Position numbers and translations under genes: made by a program
The notes under the pieces: model-generated
What the model saw: only the letters and a program-made list of their open reading frames with translations
Told to the model about the DNA's origin: nothing
Databases searched by the model: none
NCBI RefSeq assembly: GCF_002305895.1
Contig: NZ_CP022203.1
Coordinates: forward strand, 5,434,501-5,498,500
Direction of reading: 5' to 3'
DNA length: 64,000 nucleotides
DNA from: Corallococcus macrosporus DSM 14697
GTDB lineage: Bacteria; Myxococcota; Myxococcia; Myxococcales; Myxococcaceae
Shown: piece after piece, positions 16,806 to 28,312 of the stretch
How positions within the stretch are numbered: position 1 is the first letter of the stretch
How the letters are laid out: every line of letters begins with the position of its first letter

Positions 16806-17482
16806 TCACACCACGGGCTGGCGCCAGGCGCGAGACAGGTGCCCCTGACCTTCCTCGACGAAGCGCCGCAGCAGCTCGTCACGACCGTGCTTCCCGTTCT
16901 CCAGCAGGTACGCCAGCTCCCCGGGCATCAGCACCTTGACTGTGACCAGGCGCACCTCTCCGGCCGGCATGGCGAAGCGGCCTGGCAGCGTGCTCGACGC
17001 CATGCCCAGCAGCACCCCCACCCTGCCTTCTCTCCCGCGCCCTGAATCTCGCCGATGACGTCCTCGCCCAGCAGGTGCAGGCAGTCCCGTGGCTCCTTCA
17101 GGCGCTGGCACCAGCGTCCGTAGGCGCTCGCCAGCTCCGCTTCTCCGTTCGGCTCCTCGGCCACAAGAAGACGGCCCCGTCGCGGATCTTCGATGGAGAC
17201 CAAGCCCAGGCGTCCTCGCACGGGGGAGTCCGCGCGGGGCACGTCCAGGCCGAAGAGCCTCAACGCCGACTCCCTTGGCCGAGGAGACGGCGGCGCGGTG
17301 CGAGCCATCTTCTGGACCGCCTCCGCGAACTCGTCCTCGTCCAACTCGACGGGCTCAGCATCCGCTCGCGGCGTGTAGACGCTGGGCCGGCCCTCGCCGG
17401 TGTCCAGGCGCACCACCCGCGAGGTGGCACAGCCCGTGCCCACCAGCATCAGCAGGACCACCGCTCCCCAGCGCAGCGTCAT
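16806..17482 (-). pseudogene. Frameshifted SitA-like lipoprotein toxin remnant
   Basis: The intact N-terminus is a lipoprotein (MTLRWGAVVLLMLVGTGC, lipid Cys18) followed by ATSRVVRLDTGEGRPSVYTP, VELDEDEFAEAV and YGRWCQRLKEPRDCLHLL. This matches my recollection of the N-terminal delivery part of SitA-type polymorphic toxins, myxobacterial lipoproteins passed between cells by outer-membrane exchange. Near 17035 the reading frame breaks: the first frame runs on as a basic, unlikely sequence, while another frame takes over with a plausible 70-residue stretch (MPAGEVRLVTVKVLMPGELA and onward) ending at 16806. The hydrophobic middle part expected of SitA is missing, so this is read as an internally deleted and frameshifted gene. 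No immunity gene is evident. The family call is from memory of motif style. Confidence 0.6.
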
Positions 17483-17617
17483 GTCCTGCTCCGCGTCATC
17501 GCTCAACATCCCGAGGAGCGAATCCACTCAACTTCAGAGAAGACTGACCCTGCACCAGGGCATGAGGAAAAGGCGCCTCACGCCCGCCATGTGGCGTCGA
17601 GCCGCCCCGAAGCGCGG

Positions 17618-18631
17618 CTAGAAGCTCGTGAAATCAATCTGCAGGACGGGTGTGTCCGCTTCGATGTCGCGCCGGAACCGCCCCCACCGGTCGAGCGTGC
17701 TCTCGTCGAGCACGGCCGGGTCGCGATACTGGTGGAACAGCGCGTAATTCATCGAGCGCTGGAGGGCGAGCAGGTCCGGCACTGCCGCGAGCCACTCGCG
17801 CTCCATGGGTCGGAGCTCCCGATACCCTTCGAGGAAGGGCCCCAGGAACGCAGCGACCGCTTCGTCGCGCGCCTCTCGCTCCTCGCCTCGCGCGATGTAG
17901 AAGAGGAGCACCGCGATGTCCTTGACGAACCACGCGTACTCGCAGTTGTCGAAGTCGAACGCGGTGACCTTCCCTTCGGCGAAGCAGAAGTTGTGCATGT
18001 GGAGATCGGCGTGGATCAGCCCGTAGCTCTCCGGTGTTCGCGGGAGCTGGTTCAATCGCGCGATGATCGCCGCGGTGCGCTCGCGAACGAGCTTCTCCTC
18101 GGGAGGCGCGAACCGGTCGATGTCGACCACGTCGTACTCATGCCATTCCTGGCGCTTGAGCCTGGGGCTCGAAGGCGCGTAGGTCTGGGCGCGGTTGTGG
18201 AGCCGCGCGAACAGCCGGCCCAGGTCGCGGAATAGGGGGGGCTTCCAGTAGCGCTCCTTGAGCGGAGGCGCGTCGTCGAAGACGATGCCCGGCGCGCGCT
18301 CGAACGCGGTGGCGACGAAGTAGCCGCCGGGCTCGCGGTCTTCGATCCGCTCCACGAACTGCCCCGCCTCGGAGAGGACCGGCGAGGCGATGGGAATGCG
18401 CGCGGCGGCTAGATAGCGAACGAACTCGACCTCACCCAGCGTGTAGTCAATCGTTCGCCGCGTGCTGTGCGAGATGCGCAGAATCAGGCCCTCGCCGTCG
18501 TCGTTCTCCGCCTCGTAGACGAAGTTCTCGAAGGCCGCGAGCTCGGTGAGCTGCTCGGGCGACAGGCCGTACCGGCGCGCGGCCTCATCGCGAATCGGTT
18601 CGTGGAAGCGGCGGACAAGCTCTGGATGCAT
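17618..18631 (-). CDS. APH-like phosphotransferase, last gene of peptide-export operon
   Basis: 337 residues with an aminoglycoside phosphotransferase/homoserine kinase-like fold. The catalytic loop is GLIHADLHMHNF (about 205-216), the equivalent of HGDLHxxN, and the metal motif is AFDFDN. The N-lobe part FENFVYEAENDDGEGLILRISH resembles the nucleotide loop and Lys/Arg region. It would transfer phosphate from ATP to a small molecule or peptide side chain. It follows the 582-residue protein by 8 bases in a six-gene operon, so a tailoring, activation or self-immunity role for the exported product is plausible. The substrate is not visible. Confidence 0.8.
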   Translation of the reverse strand: MHPELVRRFHEPIRDEAARRYGLSPEQLTELAAFENFVYEAENDDGEGLILRISHSTRRTIDYTLGEVEFVRYLAAARIPIASPVLSEAGQFVERIEDREPGGYFVATAFERAPGIVFDDAPPLKERYWKPPLFRDLGRLFARLHNRAQTYAPSSPRLKRQEWHEYDVVDIDRFAPPEEKLVRERTAAIIARLNQLPRTPESYGLIHADLHMHNFCFAEGKVTAFDFDNCEYAWFVKDIAVLLFYIARGEEREARDEAVAAFLGPFLEGYRELRPMEREWLAAVPDLLALQRSMNYALFHQYRDPAVLDESTLDRWGRFRRDIEADTPVLQIDFTSF

Positions 18632-18639
18632 CGAACCCT

Positions 18640-20388
18640 CTAGTCCTTCAACGTGAGGCTGCTCTCACCGTAGCCCAGCACGGTCGAGGCAGCGTCGCTG
18701 GTGACCGAGACGCCCAGGCCGCGCGCGAGGGTCTCCGCCAACGGGGGGCCATTGCGCGGCCGCGTGAACACAGCCAGGTCCGCGCCGGTCAGGGGGCGAT
18801 CCGGGCGCTGGAGCCGCTGGTTCAGCAGCGCCTGCTCGCGCTCGACGACGCGCAGGCATCGGCGCTCCAGGGCGAACGCGCTGGCGGCGACGCCAGCGAG
18901 TTCACCGCGGAGGGGCTCCGCCACGACCTTGTCTCCCGGCAGCCCGTGCGCGAAGAGCTCGGCCAGTCGCCGCTGGCTCGTGGCCTGCTCGGCGGGGTCC
19001 AGCTTCGCCAGCTCGTCCAGCGAGGTGCCTTGTGGCGTGCCGGGGAATGCCTCGCCGATGCGCGCGAACAACCAGCGGCTGAGCTTGATCTCACGCTGGT
19101 ATGTCTCGGCGAGTGGGAAATCGTCCCGGAGCAACGGGTAATGCGCGACATCGATGGGCGCCTCCACGAACTCCTGCAGCGCGGTGCGCGGGAGGTGTCC
19201 GGCGAACGCCGCCCGGAGCCGTTCGTGGAGCAGCCCCTGGGTCGCGCCGAGGAAGCGGACCACCGATTCGACGCGCTGCCCGAGCAGGCCGTAATCGAGC
19301 GCGGCGTCGAGATCGCCGAGGCGCGCCGCGATGTCGGGCTGGGCCTCGATGGGTGCCGGGGCCGAGCCGGTCAACACCTGCATGTATTCGTTGATCAGCG
19401 CCGGCGGCCCGGCGCACACGCCGTGCGGACCATGGAAGACCGCGTGACGCTCGGCATAGTCCACGATCGATTGCGCGGTGACGGGCTGCTCGGGGGCGTC
19501 GCGCACCAGGTCGTTGGTGACCAGGCGAACTCCGTCGATCAGCCGGAACATGGCCGCGAGCCCGCTGTCGAGCGCTCCGTTCGGCACCGGCTGGACGCCC
19601 CGCACCAGCACGTACCCGACCGACGCGAGCGTGCAGACGACCATCATGTGGAGCTCGCCCGCGGTGAGCACGCCCGGGGTCCGGGGCGGCATGCGCGCGA
19701 AGAAGGCCTTGCGGAACTGCTCGGTCAGCGAGAGCAGGTCCGGCCACTGACGCGCCATGCCCTTCATCGCGGTCACGTTCATCGGGCGTTCGCTCTGGTA
19801 GCGGCTCCCCGCGTAGTGGCACTGCTTGCGCACGGTGGGGAGATCGAGGAACAAGGTGCGCGGCGCGACGTTGTTCTCGCCCACTTGCCGGCCGTCACTG
19901 TCGAGCGCCGGATGCGCCACGCGGTAGACCGGCACGACCACCTCGAGGTTCGAGACCTCGAACGCCCGTCCGAACGCCTGTTCGGTCAGCACGGGGCAAC
20001 GGTTGTCGCGGGCGCTGAACGTGAGCGGCTCACGCCCGGCCGGCACCTCACCCAACCGCTCCGGGAAGGACACCGTGGTGCGGCCCGTGGGCGCATCCGA
20101 GACCCGCCTCAAAACCCCCTGTTCGATCAATGCTTCGAGCAGGTCCCGCATCTTGTCCCAGGAATGGGGCGCGCCGTCCGACCACGCCATGGCGTCAGCG
20201 GCTTGAAATTGCTCGACCTGAAGCAGCTTCTCACCCAGGGGCGCGATGTCCGGCTCGTCGAAGATGAGCTCCACCTCGCCATAGAAGAGGTGCAGGACCT
20301 GCTGGCCATTCCCCGCGTCGAGCCGGTCGTGCGTGAGCCGCCTTCGATTGGGAATGTAGAGCATCTCATCCGCTTGCAGCTGTGCCAT
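18640..20388 (-). CDS. Unrecognised 582-aa protein of the peptide-export operon
   Basis: I do not recognise this family. The first ~100 residues (MLYIPNRRRLTHDRL, LHLFYGEVELIFDEPD, LLEALIEQGVLRRV) look like a small beta-plus-winged-helix module, which in RiPP clusters would suggest a PqqD-like peptide-binding domain; that is a guess. The middle holds RTLFLDLPTVRKQCHYAGSR and WPDLLSLTEQFRKAFFARMP, and a long helical C-terminal part follows. There is no signal peptide and no obvious membrane segment, so it is probably cytosolic. The gene sits 6 bases after the TolC gene and 8 bases before the APH-like kinase. Its position makes it the best candidate for a modifying or precursor-handling enzyme in this system. 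Confidence 0.75.
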   Translation of the reverse strand: MAQLQADEMLYIPNRRRLTHDRLDAGNGQQVLHLFYGEVELIFDEPDIAPLGEKLLQVEQFQAADAMAWSDGAPHSWDKMRDLLEALIEQGVLRRVSDAPTGRTTVSFPERLGEVPAGREPLTFSARDNRCPVLTEQAFGRAFEVSNLEVVVPVYRVAHPALDSDGRQVGENNVAPRTLFLDLPTVRKQCHYAGSRYQSERPMNVTAMKGMARQWPDLLSLTEQFRKAFFARMPPRTPGVLTAGELHMMVVCTLASVGYVLVRGVQPVPNGALDSGLAAMFRLIDGVRLVTNDLVRDAPEQPVTAQSIVDYAERHAVFHGPHGVCAGPPALINEYMQVLTGSAPAPIEAQPDIAARLGDLDAALDYGLLGQRVESVVRFLGATQGLLHERLRAAFAGHLPRTALQEFVEAPIDVAHYPLLRDDFPLAETYQREIKLSRWLFARIGEAFPGTPQGTSLDELAKLDPAEQATSQRRLAELFAHGLPGDKVVAEPLRGELAGVAASAFALERRCLRVVEREQALLNQRLQRPDRPLTGADLAVFTRPRNGPPLAETLARGLGVSVTSDAASTVLGYGESSLTLKD

Positions 20389-20394
20389 GGCTTC

Positions 20395-21894
20395 TCACTC
20401 CCGCTTCAGTGTGACGTCGCGCGACCAGGTGCCGCCGAGCGAGCGATAGACCTCGACGCGATGGTTGAGCAGCAGCCGTTGCGCCTGCAGGCTTGCGCGC
20501 TCGAGCCCGACCAGATTCGTCAGGGCGGTGAGCACCGTCAGATAGTCCGAATGCCCCTGCTCGAAGAGCCGCCTCGCCTCATCCAGGAGCTGCTGCCCGA
20601 GCTGGACCTGCGCCCGCAGGCTGCGCAGGCTCGTCGCCTCGTTCTCCTCCCGAACCACGGCATCCTGCACCCGTCCGATCGCGGTGTGCAGCGCGAGCTG
20701 GTATTGGATTTCGCGACGCTGGAGCTGGATCGGCAGTCGCATGTACTCGGTGACGCGCCTTCCGTCGAACAGGGCCCAGGTCAGGTTCACCCCGACGACG
20801 GACTCGCGCAGGGCCGGCTCCGAGAGGCCGACCTTCAACGCGCCCACGTTGCCCACCAGTTGAATCGTCGGGAGCCAGCTCGCCAGGTTCGCGTTGATGC
20901 GGTGATCGATCTCCGCGACGCGAAGCTCCGCGAGCCGCATCTCGGGCGTGTTCACGTTCAGGTCGCCCGGCGTTCCGAGCTCCGGTGGGGGCGGGAGATC
21001 GGGAAGCTGTCGATCGAGTGGAACAACGTCGTCGGCGGGAGTGGGTACCCGGCCCAGCAGCGCCTTCAGCTCCGAGTTCAAGAGCGCGTTCCGGGTGGCG
21101 ATCAGCGGCACCTGCGATTCGAGGTTCACCAGCAACTGCTCCTGCTGCAGCACCACGAGCCGGGGCGTGAGGTGCTGCTCGAACCGCGCTCGAACCAGCC
21201 GGAGCAGCTCCTTGTTGTAGTCAATCTGCCGCAGCGTGAGGTCCCGGAGCGCGCGGGCCTCGAGGATGTCGAACCAGACCTGGGTGATCCGCACCGCGAG
21301 GTCCTGGATGCGGCCCTCGGTGAGCTGCCGCTGCTGCTCGGCGAAGTTCATTCCCGCGCGCCGCTGCGCACCGAGGGCTCCAAACAGGTCGACCTGGTAG
21401 GTCACGCCGAAACCGACGGTGGCCAGGTCGTACTCGGCCCGGGTTGGCGGCGCGGGCGGAAGGTTGGCGTTGGCGACGACATGACTCAGTCCCGCCGGGT
21501 TCAGGATGCCGACCTGGAGCGGGTACCACCAACCTTGCGGCACGTTGGGGTCGAGCTGGTTCTCGTAGATCAACTCCCGCACCTCGCGCAGGACCAGGTT
21601 GTCGCCGAAACACTCCTGGATGGCCATGTCGAGCGCCGGATCGGCGAACGCCGTCCACCAGACTGCGTCCTGGGTAAGGCGCTCGGCTGGCTGCGCGGGC
21701 ACGCCCTCCTTCGACGGCCGCGGGCTTGGAACTCTGCCCTCGGGTGCGCTGGACGGTGGGGGCGGCTCGGTGCGCAGTTCGCTGGAGGTCGAGTAGCTGC
21801 TCGGCGTCGGAGGCGGTTTGACGACGACGGGACGAACCAGCTCGCAACCGGAGCAGGTCATCACGAGGAGGGCGAGCGTAAGTCGAAGTCTCAT
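20395..21894 (-). CDS. TolC-family outer-membrane lipoprotein
   Basis: 499 residues. It starts at MRLRLTLALLVMTCSGC with a lipidated Cys17, then a proline/serine linker and two TolC-type halves of long helices and short strands (TYQVDLFGALGAQRRAG, VNLTWALFDGRRVTEY). This is the outer-membrane factor (NodT/OprM type) of a tripartite exporter. The ATG overlaps the stop of the upstream ABC gene (ATGA), which fixes the start although the frame is open about 290 bases further. Together with the HlyD protein and the two ABC proteins it forms a complete route from cytosol to outside. Confidence 0.92.
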   Translation of the reverse strand: MRLRLTLALLVMTCSGCELVRPVVVKPPPTPSSYSTSSELRTEPPPPSSAPEGRVPSPRPSKEGVPAQPAERLTQDAVWWTAFADPALDMAIQECFGDNLVLREVRELIYENQLDPNVPQGWWYPLQVGILNPAGLSHVVANANLPPAPPTRAEYDLATVGFGVTYQVDLFGALGAQRRAGMNFAEQQRQLTEGRIQDLAVRITQVWFDILEARALRDLTLRQIDYNKELLRLVRARFEQHLTPRLVVLQQEQLLVNLESQVPLIATRNALLNSELKALLGRVPTPADDVVPLDRQLPDLPPPPELGTPGDLNVNTPEMRLAELRVAEIDHRINANLASWLPTIQLVGNVGALKVGLSEPALRESVVGVNLTWALFDGRRVTEYMRLPIQLQRREIQYQLALHTAIGRVQDAVVREENEATSLRSLRAQVQLGQQLLDEARRLFEQGHSDYLTVLTALTNLVGLERASLQAQRLLLNHRVEVYRSLGGTWSRDVTLKRE

Positions 21895-24002
21895 GGGTGG
21901 CTGACGACCACGAGGGCTTTGGCGTGGTTGAGGACGCAGCGCTGCGCGACCCGCATGGTCTCGGGATCGAGGGAGGCGAAGCTCTCGTCGAGGATGACCA
22001 GCTCGACCCCCTGCAGCAGCGTGCGCGCGATGTAGAGCCGGCTCTTCTCGCCGTGCGAGAGCTGCCAGCCGGTCTCGCCGATCATCTCCTCGAGGCCGGC
22101 GGGCATCTTGGCGACCAGCTCGTCCAGCCCGAGCTCCTTGCACAGCGCGGCGGCCTTGGCCCGCAGCTCGGGCGAGGTCGGCCACTCGCGCCCGAGCAGG
22201 AGGTTGTACGCGAAGCTGCCGGACAGGACGTGGTTCTCGTGGAACTGCGGCGCGGCGGTGATGCGCTTGCGCCAGCCCGAGGCGCCGAACGTCGCGCGGT
22301 CCAACGCGTGCAACAGCATCACACCGCCCTGCGGCGTCCTCAGGCCCGTCAACAGCGACACCAGCGTCGACTTGCCACCGCCCGATGGGCCCTCCAGCAG
22401 GATGCGGTCGCCCTGCGCGATCTGGAACGAGCAGTTCTCGAGCACCGGCCGGGTGCGCGCGTCGTGCCGGAAGGTCACGCCCCGCGCCTCGATGAGGGTT
22501 CCGCTGGCGGCGTCGGTCTGCTTGCCGCCCTCCATGTCGAGAGGGACTTTCGATTCGAGCTCGGGGCGGCCCACCGCGAGCAACAAGTCGCGGATCTGCT
22601 CGAACGACACCGCCGCCTGGGAGACCTGCTGGAAGTAGACGGCGACCTCGTCGAAGGCTCGCAGCGCGAGCAAGATGCCGCCCACGGACACCGCCAGCGC
22701 GCTGGCATTGGCCGTGCCGATGCTGAACGCCGGCAGCAACGACAGCAGGGCGATAACCAACCAGCCGTCGCGCAGGAGCGCGGTCAGCTGCATGGTCCGG
22801 CGGTCCATGACCTTCGAGGTCTCGGAGTAGGAGCTCAAGCGGACGTCTTCGCCATCATGCCAGCGCTCGAGTGGGAGCTGCGCCAGCCGCGTTCGATGGC
22901 CGAGCATGCGCTCGAGCAGGTCGTGGGTGATGTCGACGCGCGCGCTCGACCACGCCCGTTGGACGCCGTAGTGGCGGCGCGCGAGGACGAACGCGACCAC
23001 GACCCACAGGACGAGCACCATCGCCTGGGGCCACCCTCCCGCCCCGAGCACGAGGATGACGCCCGCCAGGAGCAGGTCGACGAGCGACAACACCGCGAGC
23101 AAGGCGCCGCCGACCGCGAGCTGCTCGACGACCTCGGCCTCGGCGACGCGGCCGAAATGGCGGCCGATGCCGTCGAGCCGCACCTCGTCGGGGGTCAGCT
23201 TGAGGGTTCCCGCGAGGAGCTGCTGCTTCAGCAGCGTTCCGAGCCGGATCGAGAACACGCCCTGCCACCACACCTCGAGCATGCGGAGCGGAATCGCGCA
23301 CGCGATGACGGCGATCCACCCCAAGAACCAGCCGGTCTCGAGGCGGGCCTGGAGCGCGGCGCGGCCGAGCAACCAGAACGAGCCAGCCAGCACCAGCGAG
23401 AGCAGCGTGTGGCTCACGAGGATGCCGGCCACGAGCGACGGGATGTCGCCGAGCAGCGTCCGCCGGCTCGCGGTGCGCCTGGGGCGCATGATCCAGCCGG
23501 TGCGCAACTGCGCCTGGCCGAGCCGCTGCAGCAGCATCTTTGAGCGGGCGTGCTCGCGCGCACGGGGCGACATCTCCACGCCGCCGAGCAGCTGGTCCAC
23601 CTCGGAGACGGTGGCTTCCTGCTCTTCTCGCAGGAGCGCGAGCGCGCTCTTCGTCTGGAGCGAAACCACCGTGGCGTCGCGCGCGAGCAGGCGCAGCTTC
23701 CCGCGCCGCGTCCCCAGCAGCACCAGATAGGACGGGACGCCGTCTCGTCGGACCTGGAGGATGCAGGGCGCGGCGCGTTCGAGGACGTCGGGCAGCTCGT
23801 GGTAGAGCGGCGTGATGGGCTCGAGCTCCACGCCGAGTCGATCTCCGAGCGCGAACATCCAGACCCGGCTCGGCTCGACGGCCGCCGCGGGCGGGGCGAT
23901 CTCGCCCGCAGGCCTGCCATAGCCTTGCCTCTGCGCCAGCTGCTCCAGCGCGTCGGACAGTCGCTCGACCGGCCACAACAGTTCGGAGTGCGAGCGCGTC
24001 AT
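21891..24002 (-). CDS. ABC transporter, second half-transporter (NHLM ABC2-like)
   Basis: 703 residues. About 150 N-terminal residues resemble a degenerate C39 domain (PCILQVRRDGVPSYLVLL, LRLLARDATVV) with no catalytic cysteine and with serine where the active paralogue has histidine. Six hydrophobic segments span about 185-470. The ATPase domain has Walker A GPSGGGKST, Walker B LVILDESF and a switch histidine at the very end (VVSHP). The signature motif is LSHGE rather than LSGGQ, so this half may be a weak or non-canonical ATPase. The start is set by ATGA overlap with the upstream ABC gene. It matches the ABC2 partner of NHLM-type peptide export systems. Confidence 0.9.
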   Translation of the reverse strand: MTRSHSELLWPVERLSDALEQLAQRQGYGRPAGEIAPPAAAVEPSRVWMFALGDRLGVELEPITPLYHELPDVLERAAPCILQVRRDGVPSYLVLLGTRRGKLRLLARDATVVSLQTKSALALLREEQEATVSEVDQLLGGVEMSPRAREHARSKMLLQRLGQAQLRTGWIMRPRRTASRRTLLGDIPSLVAGILVSHTLLSLVLAGSFWLLGRAALQARLETGWFLGWIAVIACAIPLRMLEVWWQGVFSIRLGTLLKQQLLAGTLKLTPDEVRLDGIGRHFGRVAEAEVVEQLAVGGALLAVLSLVDLLLAGVILVLGAGGWPQAMVLVLWVVVAFVLARRHYGVQRAWSSARVDITHDLLERMLGHRTRLAQLPLERWHDGEDVRLSSYSETSKVMDRRTMQLTALLRDGWLVIALLSLLPAFSIGTANASALAVSVGGILLALRAFDEVAVYFQQVSQAAVSFEQIRDLLLAVGRPELESKVPLDMEGGKQTDAASGTLIEARGVTFRHDARTRPVLENCSFQIAQGDRILLEGPSGGGKSTLVSLLTGLRTPQGGVMLLHALDRATFGASGWRKRITAAPQFHENHVLSGSFAYNLLLGREWPTSPELRAKAAALCKELGLDELVAKMPAGLEEMIGETGWQLSHGEKSRLYIARTLLQGVELVILDESFASLDPETMRVAQRCVLNHAKALVVVSHP

Positions 24003-26728
24003 CCCGTCAGCTCCAGCTCGCCCGCGGCGGGCTCCGCGGCCGGCGTCTCCACCGGCTTCGGCGCCGGCCTCTCCACCAGTTGGCCGTCCGAAAGCCACCA
24101 ATGGCGCCAGCGCCCATCGCCCCAGAGCAGGGTGCGGTTCTCCTGGTCGGCGCGGAGGAGCACGGCGTACCGCGACTCCTTGTTCGCGAGCAGCTCCTTC
24201 GGCGGCCCGTTCTCGAGGATCCGACCGTTCTCGATCACGAGCACGCGATCGAACTCCTGGGTGTGCTCGACGTCGTGGGTGACACAGAGGAGCGTGATGT
24301 CTGCCCAGAGCCGCCGGGACTCGGCGAGGAGCCGCGCGCGCCGGTCGCGATCGAGACCGCGAAAGGGCTCGTCGAGGATGGCCAGGCGTACGCCGGAGCG
24401 AAGCATCGCGCGCGCCAGGCGCACGCGCTGACCCTGGCCGCCCGAGACCAGCCCTCCGCCTTCGCCCAACGACGTCTGCAGCCCGTCTGGAAGCGCCTCG
24501 AGGATGTCGAGCATCTCAGCCCCCTTGAGCGCCCCCGACAGTGACCAGCCCTGCGCACCGTCGTTGCCATACCGGATGTTGTCGATGAGGCTCTGGTTCC
24601 AGAGACTGATTGCCGGATCCACCCAGGCCGTGGTGCGCCGCAGCCGCTCGACAGCGGCCTGATCGAGCACCTTCCCGTCGACCTTGATCTCGCCGCGCGC
24701 CGGCCGGAGCCAGCCGAGCAAGAGGCCGACCAGCGTCGACTTGCCTGCTCCGGAGACCCCGACCACGGCCACGTGCTCGCCGGGGGCGATGTTCAAGGAG
24801 ACCTTGTCGAGGATGGTGTGACCTCCGCCTTTGACGCGGACCTTCTCCATCACGATCGAAACGCCGCTCGTGGCGTCCGCGGACGCGGCGGGCTCCTGCA
24901 CTGGCGCCTCGGGCCGGGCCGGCGGCGCCTTGATGTCGCCGATGACGTCGAGGAGCCGGCGTACCCGGTTCATCGCATTCGGGAACGTGCGGCTCAGCAG
25001 CATCAGCCGCTGGCCGAGGATGGGCAACCGCAGCGCCCAATAGACGACCAACAACACCAGCGAGGCCCGATCGGTGCCCGCGAGGTACGAATAGACGAGC
25101 AGCATGACGAGGCCGTAGCCCACCAGCATCAGCCCGCCTTCGAACCCGACCGACAACGTCTGGAGCCAATAGCGCGCCTTGGTCCAACTGACGAGCAAGG
25201 TCTCCTGCGCGCGGCGCAGCGACCGCTCGGCGCCGTGGATGCGGATCGGCGTGAGCCCGACGAGCGCGTTCAAGGTGAATCCGCTGAGCGCGCCTGCGTG
25301 CATTTGCACGCGCAGGTCGGGCTCGAAGAGCAGCTTCTGCGCGACCAGGGGCACGAGCAGCGTGACCGCCGCGAGCGCGAGCACGAGGTGCCAGGCGTGC
25401 GGTGCGGCCCAGATGAGCGCGGCGGTGATGCTCGCGACTTCGAGCGACAGGATCGAGGCCTGCGCGAGCAGGAGCGGCAACGACCGCATCGCCTGGATGT
25501 TGTGCGTGCGAGACGCCATGTCGGAGGCGAGCCGGCTCTGGAAGTAGCGGTCCTCCATCTCGGGGAGCTTCTCGAAATACGCCTTCCGCAGCCGCACCTC
25601 GAGCCGGCGGCCGATGCCGAGCAGTCCCAGTGAAATGGGGATTTGGATGAGCATGAAGCAGAGCGCGACGCCCGCGAGGACGGCCATGCCCGTCGCGCGC
25701 TGCGCGAACGTGCCGAGGTCGCGCCCCAGGTCGAGCACGCCACGGAGCATCAGCGCTTGCAGGATCCGCCCGAAGGTGGCGAACACCAGTCCCACCGCGA
25801 TCAGGCCCGGAACGACCCACGAGTCTTCGCCTCGCAAGCGGAGCAGCGTGCGCGCCGGGCTCGTCTGCCTGGCGACGAGCTCCGTCGCCAGGTCGCTCGC
25901 GAGGACGGCTCTCGGCGCGTCTTCGCCTTCGCGCGGAGCCTCGCGCCAACCGCGAACCCGCATCAGCACCGCGCCGGACATCAACAGCTCGCCCTCCGCC
26001 TCGGGGTTGGGGCGAACGGACCAGTAGGCGGCGGGAATGGGCACTTCGCCGGAGTCGTCCTTCGCCATCATGGACTGAAGCAGGCCCGCCGCCGTCCGGC
26101 CTCGCCGGATGGCGCCCGCGCGGATCATCGCTTCGGACGCCCGGCACGCGGCGTCGAGCCTGGCGATCGACAAATACCCGGGGTCCTCAAGCGCCCGGGC
26201 CACCAGCGCCCGCGCCTGCGTCTCACCCAGGTTCAGCAGGCGGCGCTCGAACGTCGCGACCGCCTCCTCGGACCCGGCCCATTCACGCCAGCCGTCCGCC
26301 GGAACGGACGTGGTGTGCTGGTACAGGTGGCTCAGCAGCGTCGAGATCCGGGTCCAGTGCCGGCCCGCCGCCGGGTCCATGACCTGGATGAACGGGCCGA
26401 CGCGATTCCACAGCACCACGAAGTGCGGCCGTCCTCCCGCGCTGAGCGTGACGATGATGGCGGGAAGCGCCTTGGCTTCGGGGACCATCACGTGGTCGAG
26501 CGGAAGCATCACCTGCTCGGAGTCGAGCCCGAGCTGGTTCGCGACTTCATCCAAGGTGACGATCGAGGTGCCATCGACGTCCGTCTGACACACTTCGCGA
26601 AGGACGCGATAGTTGAGCTCGGCGCCCATCCCCGCGAACAGGCTCTTGAGTGAAGCGGGGCCACAATCCGTCGCCGAGATCTGAATCACCTCGGGAATTA
26701 TCGAGCGCCGGCGCCTGGGAGGAGTCAT
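23999..26728 (-). CDS. Peptidase-containing ABC transporter (C39; NHLM ABC1-like)
   Basis: 909 residues. The N-terminal C39 peptidase is intact: Cys22 in ATDCGPASLKSLF, His102 in PHFVVLW and Asp118 in VMDPAAG. Such domains cut leader peptides after a double glycine during export. A region of about 150 residues (150-300) separates it from the membrane domain (about 305-600). The C-terminal ATPase has Walker A GVSGAGKST, signature LVSGGQGQRVRLARA, Walker B LAILDEPF and VTHD. At 909 residues it is longer than typical ~700-residue peptidase ABC exporters because of that insert. It starts 2 bases after the HlyD stop. With ABC2 it should form the inner-membrane exporter and leader protease. Confidence 0.93.
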   Translation of the reverse strand: MTPPRRRRSIIPEVIQISATDCGPASLKSLFAGMGAELNYRVLREVCQTDVDGTSIVTLDEVANQLGLDSEQVMLPLDHVMVPEAKALPAIIVTLSAGGRPHFVVLWNRVGPFIQVMDPAAGRHWTRISTLLSHLYQHTTSVPADGWREWAGSEEAVATFERRLLNLGETQARALVARALEDPGYLSIARLDAACRASEAMIRAGAIRRGRTAAGLLQSMMAKDDSGEVPIPAAYWSVRPNPEAEGELLMSGAVLMRVRGWREAPREGEDAPRAVLASDLATELVARQTSPARTLLRLRGEDSWVVPGLIAVGLVFATFGRILQALMLRGVLDLGRDLGTFAQRATGMAVLAGVALCFMLIQIPISLGLLGIGRRLEVRLRKAYFEKLPEMEDRYFQSRLASDMASRTHNIQAMRSLPLLLAQASILSLEVASITAALIWAAPHAWHLVLALAAVTLLVPLVAQKLLFEPDLRVQMHAGALSGFTLNALVGLTPIRIHGAERSLRRAQETLLVSWTKARYWLQTLSVGFEGGLMLVGYGLVMLLVYSYLAGTDRASLVLLVVYWALRLPILGQRLMLLSRTFPNAMNRVRRLLDVIGDIKAPPARPEAPVQEPAASADATSGVSIVMEKVRVKGGGHTILDKVSLNIAPGEHVAVVGVSGAGKSTLVGLLLGWLRPARGEIKVDGKVLDQAAVERLRRTTAWVDPAISLWNQSLIDNIRYGNDGAQGWSLSGALKGAEMLDILEALPDGLQTSLGEGGGLVSGGQGQRVRLARAMLRSGVRLAILDEPFRGLDRDRRARLLAESRRLWADITLLCVTHDVEHTQEFDRVLVIENGRILENGPPKELLANKESRYAVLLRADQENRTLLWGDGRWRHWWLSDGQLVERPAPKPVETPAAEPAAGELELTG

Positions 26729-26730
26729 GG

Positions 26731-27948
26731 TCAGCGGGCCACGGCTTCGGGCCGGAACACGGTCACGGGCGGCTCTTCAGGCTGCGGATTCCATTCGCCG
26801 ACCGCCCGCATCAGCAGCGCGACAGGCGACGCCCGCGCGACCTCGACCTCCACCGCCAGGGTCATGCCGTGGCGCAGTTGGATGCGCGGATCCTCCGGCG
26901 GCGCGAAACTGAGCTCGACGCGCACCGTCCCGGGGATGGCCTCGGGCGTGGCGGTCTGGCCGGGCTCGGTCCCGACGGCCGTCACCCTGGCGGGGACCGT
27001 GCCGTAGATGGTCGTCGGGTAGCCGTCGAGCTTGAGGCGCGCCATTTGACCGGGATGGATCAATCCGACGACCTCCTTCGGGAACCGCGCGCGCACCCGC
27101 ACCTCGGCATCGCTCGCCAGGATGGTGCCGACCCGCTGCCCGTCGGCGATGAACGCTCCCGAGCCGAGCTCCGCCACGTCCACCATGTGGCCCGTGGCCG
27201 GCGCCCGATACAGCTTCTGCGCAATCTGGTACTCGAGGCGGTCGATCACGCCCTGGAGCTCCCGGATCCGCCCCTCGGCCCCCAGCGCCTCGCGCTCGAG
27301 TGCCAGCAACTGCGCGGCGAGGGCCTGACGGCGCACGTCCTGCTCGCGCCGCAGTCGGATGAGCGCCAGGCCCTGCGCCGTCTGCGCGAAGCGGAGCGCG
27401 TCGACATCGGTCGTGCGCTCGAGCTTCTCCATCTCCGAGACCGCGCCCGCCGGGCTCTTGAGGGCCAGCTCCGCGCGTTCCACCGCGAGCCGGTGCCTGG
27501 GCGCCAGCTCCTGCTCCCTCTCCAGCGCCTCCTTGACCGCGACCTCGTCCACCCGCGCCGTCAAAGCCGCCTCTTCCTGCTTGTTGGTGATCTGCTGGCG
27601 GATGATGGCGAGCTCCTTCTCGGTCGCGGCGAGCGTCGCCTTGCTCCGCTCGAGCTCGAGGCGCTCGGCCCGTGTGTCGAACTCGATGAGCAGGTCGCCT
27701 TCCTTGACCTCATGGTCGAGCTTGAGCCGCGAGAACACGACCCTGCCCGCGCTGGGCGGCTCGATGCGATGGACGGCGTTGTGTGGCTCGATCCGGGCCT
27801 GTGAGCTGGCTTTTACGAGCGGGACCTTGGCGAACAGCGACCAGGCGATGAGCCCGCCGGCGCACACCACCATCAGAGCGACGAACACGAGGCGCGTGTC
27901 CGACTCGTAATTCAGGGAACGAAGGGTTCGCTCGAAGGGATATGCCAT
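26731..27948 (-). CDS. HlyD-family adaptor of the peptide exporter
   Basis: 405 residues, first gene of the operon. It has a single membrane segment at about 21-42 (LVFVALMVVCAGGLIAWSLF), a lipoyl/barrel part (IEPPSAGRVVFSRLKLDHEV), a long coiled coil (about 105-235) and a C-terminal beta domain. It bridges the inner-membrane ABC proteins to the TolC-like protein across the periplasm, as in NHLM bacteriocin secretion proteins. The next gene starts only 2 bases after its stop. A TTGACA lies at 27985-27990 on this strand, but no good -10 is placed behind it. Confidence 0.92.
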   Translation of the reverse strand: MAYPFERTLRSLNYESDTRLVFVALMVVCAGGLIAWSLFAKVPLVKASSQARIEPHNAVHRIEPPSAGRVVFSRLKLDHEVKEGDLLIEFDTRAERLELERSKATLAATEKELAIIRQQITNKQEEAALTARVDEVAVKEALEREQELAPRHRLAVERAELALKSPAGAVSEMEKLERTTDVDALRFAQTAQGLALIRLRREQDVRRQALAAQLLALEREALGAEGRIRELQGVIDRLEYQIAQKLYRAPATGHMVDVAELGSGAFIADGQRVGTILASDAEVRVRARFPKEVVGLIHPGQMARLKLDGYPTTIYGTVPARVTAVGTEPGQTATPEAIPGTVRVELSFAPPEDPRIQLRHGMTLAVEVEVARASPVALLMRAVGEWNPQPEEPPVTVFRPEAVAR

Positions 27949-28107
27949 GGTCCGTCAACCAAAGTCGCCTTAATGGTCGCGCCCTGTCAACACCTCGGCC
28001 ACTGCTTTGCGATTCACGCTCCCGTTGTCTGAACAGGCGCGCTTCGATGTGACGCGGGAATTCGCTCTCATCGCCGCAATGCGTTGCAAATAAATCACGG
28101 GTTCGAT

Positions 28108-28137
28108 TTGACATCCCGTTTTGAGTACACGTAGCGT
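28108..28137 (+). promoter_or_regulatory. Promoter for the 14-codon peptide gene
   Basis: Perfect -35 TTGACA at 28108-28113, an 18-base spacer and -10 TAGCGT at 28132-28137, leaving about 27 bases to the tiny ORF. The surrounding DNA is clearly lower in GC than the flanking genes. Confidence 0.55.
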
Positions 28138-28163
28138 TCAACACGAAAGAAAGGAGGCACGAC

Positions 28164-28208
28164 ATGAAGATCAAGATCCACGTTCGCGGCGGCCCCAAGG
28201 CGCGCTAG
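28164..28208 (+). CDS. Tiny 14-aa ORF, candidate double-glycine peptide precursor
   Basis: The ORF reads MKIKIHVRGGPKAR and then TAG. It is preceded by AAGGAGG with a 6-base spacer, one of the strongest ribosome sites seen in this window, and by a sigma70-like promoter; a strong hairpin with a T-rich tail follows. The GG at residues 9-10 is what a C39 peptidase recognises. The neighbouring divergent operon encodes such a peptidase-exporter, which would leave the tetrapeptide PKAR if it cut after GG. The peptide is very basic (3 Lys, 2 Arg, 1 His). Its codons are GC3-rich like host genes. I know of no named family. Alternatives are a regulatory leader peptide or a chance ORF. Confidence 0.6.
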   Translation: MKIKIHVRGGPKAR

Positions 28209-28223
28209 TAGTCAGTCGTTTTG

Positions 28224-28267
28224 ACGCCCGCTGTTGAGTCTGGGCGTTCCTCGTTTCAGATCAACAG
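28224..28267 (+). other. Two mutually exclusive stem-loops after the tiny ORF
   Basis: Stem A pairs ACGCCC (28224-28229) with GGGCGT (28242-28247). Stem B pairs CTGTTGA (28231-28237) with TCAACAG (28261-28267). The two share bases, so only one can form at a time. This may be simple 3' UTR structure or a switch before the terminator. Confidence 0.4.
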
Positions 28268-28270
28268 AGG

Positions 28271-28312
28271 GGGGGTTGATGGGATTCTCCATCAACTCCT
28301 CTTCTCATTTCT
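28271..28312 (+). terminator. Intrinsic terminator of the tiny peptide transcript
   Basis: Stem GGGGTTGATGG (28272-28282) with CCATCAACTCC (28289-28299) and loop GATTCT, followed by TCTTCTCATTTC. It lies about 63 bases after the tiny ORF stop, so the transcript would be roughly 170 bases long. Confidence 0.65.

Follow-up and report, generated by a model that had tools for sequence, protein, structure and literature searches.

A putative 14-codon precursor gene opposite a C39 exporter operon in Corallococcus macrosporus and an apparently undescribed family of short-leader peptides

The exporter operon and its divergent 14-codon ORF

The window (the whole 64,000-nucleotide stretch of Corallococcus macrosporus DSM 14697 DNA that was analyzed) contained a minus-strand operon of six genes, with intergenic gaps of 2, 6, and 8 bases and two 4-base ATGA overlaps. 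Its gene order and domains agreed with the initial annotation, which had described six tightly spaced or ATGA-overlapping genes. A divergent ORF of 14 codons reads MKIKIHVRGGPKAR and is preceded by AAAGGAGG.

17618 to 18631, minus strand: APH-fold kinase, 337 aa (PF01636)
18640 to 20388, minus strand: U582, a 582-aa protein with an RRE-like N-terminal domain (residues 1 to 97) and a helical, probably catalytic domain (residues ~160 to 582), based on AlphaFold models, fold comparison, and alignments; no Pfam family
20395 to 21894, minus strand: TolC-like outer membrane lipoprotein, 499 aa (PF02321; ATGA overlap)
21891 to 24002, minus strand: second ABC half-transporter (ABC2), 703 aa (PF00005; ATGA overlap with the C39-ABC gene)
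23999 to 26728, minus strand: C39 peptidase-containing ABC exporter (C39-ABC), 909 aa (PF03412, PF00664, and PF00005; Q16, C22, H102, and D118 intact)
26731 to 27948, minus strand: HlyD-type periplasmic adaptor, 405 aa (PF13437; TIGR01843 below cut-off)
28108 to 28113, plus strand: TTGACA, possible -35 element of the putative precursor gene, invariant in 27 copies, without a recognizable -10 element
28150 to 28157, plus strand: Shine-Dalgarno region AAAGGAGG, invariant in 27 copies
28164 to 28208, plus strand: putative precursor gene of 14 codons, MKIKIHVRGG (leader) plus PKAR (predicted core), based on coding conservation in 22 orthologous loci

The intact catalytic residues of the exporter and the divergent ORF with its Shine-Dalgarno sequence were likewise as first annotated. 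The promoter and intrinsic terminator proposed for the ORF held only in part: the TTGACA hexamer was found, but a consensus scan gave no acceptable -10 element, and a hairpin folds behind the ORF but is weak, receiving no score in the terminator scan. Neither a full promoter nor a standard terminator was therefore recovered at the ORF by consensus scanning. Beside the operon, a minus-strand ORF at 16928 to 17527 resembled the SitA5 escort domain of a polymorphic toxin family (NF050093; 122.8 bits versus a cut-off of 160, with half of the profile covered).

U582 was searched for in 145 genomes of the order and was present in 32. Recurrence of the ORF upstream of homologous operons, which had been proposed as a check, was found throughout: the 14-mer with AAAGGAGG was conserved and held the same position in each of the 22 close orthologous loci retrieved (U582 90 to 97% identical), with two copies in four of them. 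Over 27 copies of the ORF, 1 of 14 first, 0 of 14 second, and 5 of 14 third codon positions were variable, while the flanks varied at 62 of 85 upstream and 74 of 104 downstream columns; the Shine-Dalgarno core and TTGACA were invariant across the same copies. Because the second codon position is fixed, the third varies, and the flanks diverge, this pattern is, as judged from the alignment, the signature of a translated, selected peptide. Two of the additional copies (L045:12991-13599 and L047:1610-2259) lie beside HlyD fragments and are remnants of tandem duplication.

Short peptides with a common leader and their association with U582

Searching with U582 as the query revealed 115 distinct short peptides (13 to 53 aa) with a common 10-residue leader, M[KQ]IKTxVR[GA]G, and hypervariable cores. 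These peptides adjoin U582 homologues in Myxococcus, Corallococcus, and Archangium, as well as in Nitrospira, alphaproteobacterial, and Burkholderiales assemblies, and an SD-like motif precedes all 115. Within the leader, Gly10 was invariant, Arg8 was present in 113 peptides, and position 9 was Gly, Ala, or Ser in 88, 26, and 1, respectively. The Gly-Gly cut site originally proposed for the ORF thus applies to the window member and to 88 of the 115 peptides, but the motif of the family as a whole is xG, with leader ends of GG (88), AG (26), and SG (1) compared to the GG, GA, or GS expected of double-glycine leaders. Core lengths ranged from 3 to 43 residues, placing the 14-mer near the shortest end of the family. 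Arg occurred in 113 of the 115 cores, R-x(0,1)-C in 95, exactly one Cys in 97 (for example, MKIKTKVRGGPRGCGPGGISIYYEL), and K-x-R in 11. Systems with distant U582 homologues (~31 to 38% identity) carried longer peptides with the same start (MKIKTKVRGGPRGCGPGGISIWYDEV, MKIKTTIRGGLLSTVRTGPIIGRGCGGGGGFPILQLAKTVVVE, and MKIKTRVRAGPIATSGGRGCGGGIIIAAPLDI), and some loci contained arrays of precursors, 13 of which are listed for locus L066.

Since the 115 relatives keep the leader and the SD-like motif while their cores vary freely, the ORF is read as a leader-core precursor, and a ribosomal precursor with a conserved leader and variable core, as in RiPPs, was found in both the peptide set and the coding signature. 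The 14-codon ORF is very probably such a precursor, with predicted cleavage after Gly10. The earlier proposal that it encodes the peptide substrate of the operon gained accordingly, as it is a conserved gene tied to the operon and almost certainly its substrate. Three leader peptides with NPQP[DE]PPG cores (MKVKTHIRGGFNPQPDPPG and relatives; L148:4016, L148:4108, and L149:4245) were found in two genomes with no U582 nearby. In a further genome (G120, loci L139 to L147), 15 leader-pattern matches were spread over many contigs. Most of these are distant from both U582 genes of that genome, so U582 may serve numerous precursors in trans there.

The short length of the ORF, its strong Shine-Dalgarno sequence, and the hairpin behind it would suit an ORF that regulates from upstream, belongs to a small RNA, or arose by chance. 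Such an origin is extremely improbable: the ORF is transcribed away from the operon, its protein sequence rather than the RNA alone is conserved, and leaders of this kind precede unrelated cores in separate genes that form arrays. A reversed-pattern control gave no matches in 96 genomes, and the leader pattern matched only once, at the ORF, in its own 9-Mb genome, which together place the ORF far beyond chance.

Among the 96 genomes of the taxonomic family, the leader pattern was found in 31, comprising all 29 genomes with full-length U582 and 2 of the 67 others (G098 and G108). The matches in these two genomes, plus one in G100, fall inside a long unrelated protein and were discarded. Co-occurrence of the leader pattern and U582 was highly significant (Fisher's exact test, P ~1.5e-22), with the relatedness of the genomes lowering the true significance, and within each genus the two were present or absent together. 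A scan of 84,980 species placed U582 relatives in Myxococcus, Corallococcus, and Archangium and, going by record titles, in Nitrospira, Paracraurococcus, an Asaia metagenome-assembled genome (MAG), Phenylobacterium, other Alphaproteobacteria, and a Burkholderiales MAG, where the MAG names may be wrong; one Myxococcus-like U582 record was labeled Comamonas. On contigs that were long enough, the U582 loci of Nitrospira, Alphaproteobacteria, and Burkholderiales mostly contained exporter genes and leader peptides (such as MKIKTNVRAGQSIDGGGSTRCGGSTRCGGSTRCGGTKAI and MKVKTNLRAGAGQKRSSSTDSTSLDASGKVVAPPPVSRCLGI), so that the set of U582, C39-ABC, ABC2, HlyD, and leader peptides recurs in other phyla. 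The system was rare outside myxobacteria (a single genome among 385 of one class and two among 249 of one family, all of them already known), and no relative was found in the viral contigs and plasmids searched. Linkage of the tiny ORF, U582, and the exporter is close to certain.

The leader peptides appear to be a previously undescribed family of small peptides that are secreted and that gene finders can easily overlook; they would have stayed hidden because their genes (13 to 53 codons) fall below the usual annotation limits. Searches for the leader strings in openly licensed PubMed Central texts found no description of the family, and within that literature its novelty is likely. A match to MKIKTT in a paper on signal peptides for human somatropin was judged unrelated from its title and abstract.

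Core type was associated with the last gene of the operon. Systems with K-x-R cores (PKAR, KARL, KVR, LTKIR, and VLVKGR) had an APH kinase and lacked a core Cys; the kinase was present in 22 of 22 orthologous loci plus L055 and L091, and no match to it was found in Cys-core loci within the stretches searched. APH-fold kinases are often self-resistance enzymes. By analogy, a cationic antibiotic peptide with kinase-based immunity would be a reasonable interpretation, with tailoring of the product as an alternative role for the kinase.

The exporter and recognition of the leader

The C39 residues Q16, C22, H102, and D118 were kept in 49 of 49 exporter relatives. The "NHLM-type" label first given to this exporter was not upheld, with scores of 188, 175, and 38 bits against curated cut-offs of 853, 709, and 156 (TIGR03796, TIGR03797, and TIGR03794, respectively). 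No Nif11-type leader was found in the genome, nor was an NHLP-type leader, for which control genomes were equally silent.

In LahT, a well-studied case, the C39 domain recognizes a helical leader by way of hydrophobic residues at -4, -7, and -12, and a Lys at -7 is strongly detrimental (PMC6363468). The leader family departs from this helical double-glycine pattern: all 115 peptides had V, I, or L at -4, but all had K, Q, E, or R at -7, and -12 was absent. Because -7 is polar or charged in every peptide and -12 is nonexistent, leader reading by this C39 subgroup would have to be different, unless the substrate is delivered by U582 or by the membrane domain.

A longer Gly-Gly leader precursor elsewhere in the genome, named at the outset as what would count against the tiny ORF, was looked for and not found for the window exporter. 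The genome has just one other C39 peptidase; it belongs to a class II lanthipeptide exporter that lies 2.1 Mb away and is accompanied by a separate LanM and precursor. That cluster (L153, C1:3338000-3352000) encodes a LanM (TIGR03897, 943 bits) and its own C39-ABC exporter, and its mersacidin-type precursor ends ...LSDEVLESISGA|DSCERFGSYHCTPCPPYVCL. Profile searches found no lanthionine domain, and hence no LanM as in class II lanthipeptides, in the window operon.

U582 and a candidate RiPP pathway

No Pfam match above noise was obtained for any member of a 26-sequence U582 alignment. NCBIfam held no family for U582 (one relative gave a chance-like match below cut-off), PADLOC returned no match, and PDB sequences gave no convincing one. 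The AlphaFold model (pLDDT, 81.8; pTM, 0.74) consisted of an N-terminal winged helix, a poorly modeled linker (residues 100 to 121), and a helical domain. The best fold matches to residues 1 to 100 were the winged helices of the ribosomal oxygenases MINA53 (Z, 9.7) and NO66 (Z, 8.2), followed among RRE or leader-binding domains by ThcOx (7.4), McbB (7.0), MccB (6.7), TbiB1 (6.4), PbtF (6.2), and lasso B1 (5.2). The model suggests that the winged helix resembles RREs, and RRE-like is a fair word for it; the label was kept at that since these Z-scores are modest (5.2 to 7.4, all <8), low enough for a merely common arrangement to account for them. RRE domains are frequent, but not universal, in RiPP systems. 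It is quite probable that U582 contains a leader-binding RRE-like domain. This domain is acidic (17 D/E versus 9 K/R), and a cationic, alternating leader would suit beta-strand addition onto it.

Across U582 homologues, including two without the RRE-like domain (L082:9565-10965 and L080:8838-10136), 22 residues were invariant; D163, R167, E171, C190, R196, N204, W215, R263, and C325 persisted even in these two divergent proteins. One of the two clusters with an L-amino-acid ligase, a PLP enzyme, an M28 peptidase, and an ABC-2 exporter, and the other lies near methyltransferase-like genes and a JmjC protein. Because the invariant residues persist in RRE-less homologues within such neighborhoods, U582 would fit a natural-product enzyme domain onto which a leader-binding domain has been fused. 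The helical part matched only assorted helical proteins and may yet have a known fold. U582 was the sole non-transport protein common to all systems, and among ten neighbors scanned in Cys-core systems, only transport was common, with no extra tailoring enzyme. Modification of the core by U582 is likely.

The position of U582 as the one shared non-transport protein would also suit a chaperone or escort that hands unmodified bacteriocins or signals to the exporter in place of a helical leader. The lack of canonical C39 contacts in the leader makes a delivery protein plausible, and no known modifying domain was recognized in U582. The many invariant polar residues (those listed above except W215) and the natural-product-like clusters of homologues without the leader-binding part point instead to catalysis, and an escort function alone is considered unlikely. 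More unlikely still is conversion of the precursor, in the way that PqqA yields PQQ, into a small metabolite or cofactor that U582 would make and release in place of a secreted peptide. Such a product would be compatible with the window core, which has just four residues and is strictly conserved in its orthologues, and with the occurrence of U582-like domains in gene clusters beside an amino-acid ligase and a PLP enzyme, but the long, highly diverse cores found in arrays with the same exporter in related systems are a better fit to exported peptides.

The preferred reading, with a composite probability of about 0.72, is a RiPP-like system in which U582 binds the leader and modifies the core and the C39 exporter cuts after residue 10 and secretes the product; the estimates for precursor and cleavage, RRE-like domain, and core modification are interdependent. 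We infer binding, modification, cleavage, export, and a kinase role as follows. The alternating cationic and hydrophobic leader (K-I-K-x-x-V-R) would dock as a beta strand on the acidic RRE-like domain, the C-terminal domain of U582 would alter the core, and the exporter C39 domain would cut after Gly10. The HlyD/double-ABC/TolC machinery would then carry the core out, here Pro-Lys-Ala-Arg, and the APH-like kinase of the K-x-R subtype would tailor the product or protect the producer. Against this reading stand the unusually short four-residue core, the modest RRE-like Z-scores with better matches to ribosomal oxygenases, the missing -7 and -12 contacts of the leader, and the FNPQPDPPG-type leader peptides, whose loci have no U582 gene close by. 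A bolder version is put forward tentatively: a new RiPP class over several phyla, with a 10-residue strand-like leader, U582 as a new enzyme family, and non-helical C39 recognition, in which the window member would release a modified tetrapeptide and the APH kinase would provide self-resistance.

The leader family, the RRE-like domain of U582, and the tie between the APH kinase and the Lys-x-Arg subtype are new relative to the initial annotation. If correct, the reading would provide an unreported class of secreted peptides with >100 ready sequences, an enzyme family (U582) without known relatives, a test of the minimum leader length for a leader-binding domain and a C39 exporter alike, and natural arrays of hypervariable cores as a source of bioactive peptides. 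The leader motif combined with U582 is a search pattern directly usable on any genome.

Double-glycine (C39/PCAT) RiPPs, such as class II lanthipeptides and the LahT system (PMC6363468 and PMC10885120), share the C39 peptidase-ABC exporter, the xG leader end, and arrays of one leader with diverse cores. Their leaders are helices of at least 13 residues, whereas the leader here has 10 and lacks hydrophobic -7 and -12 contacts, and U582 takes the place of LanM or another known modifying enzyme. The HlyD, C39-ABC, and second ABC gene set is that of NHLM/NHLP systems, from which the locus differs in its sub-cut-off profile scores and in that no nitrile-hydratase or Nif11 type of leader was found in the genome. 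The modeled N-terminal winged helix of U582 resembles in arrangement that of RRE-containing RiPP proteins (McbB, TbiB1, PbtF, ThcOx, and TruD), and the leader would likewise lend itself to strand addition; in U582, however, the RRE-like domain is fused to a helical domain without a recognized relative. Biarylitides such as myxarylin (PMC8708641 and PMC12951456) also occur in myxobacteria and also have tiny precursor genes missed by automatic annotation, but they derive from a 5-residue precursor cross-linked by a cytochrome P450, whereas the operon described here has no P450 and is paired with a conserved 10-residue leader and a C39 exporter.
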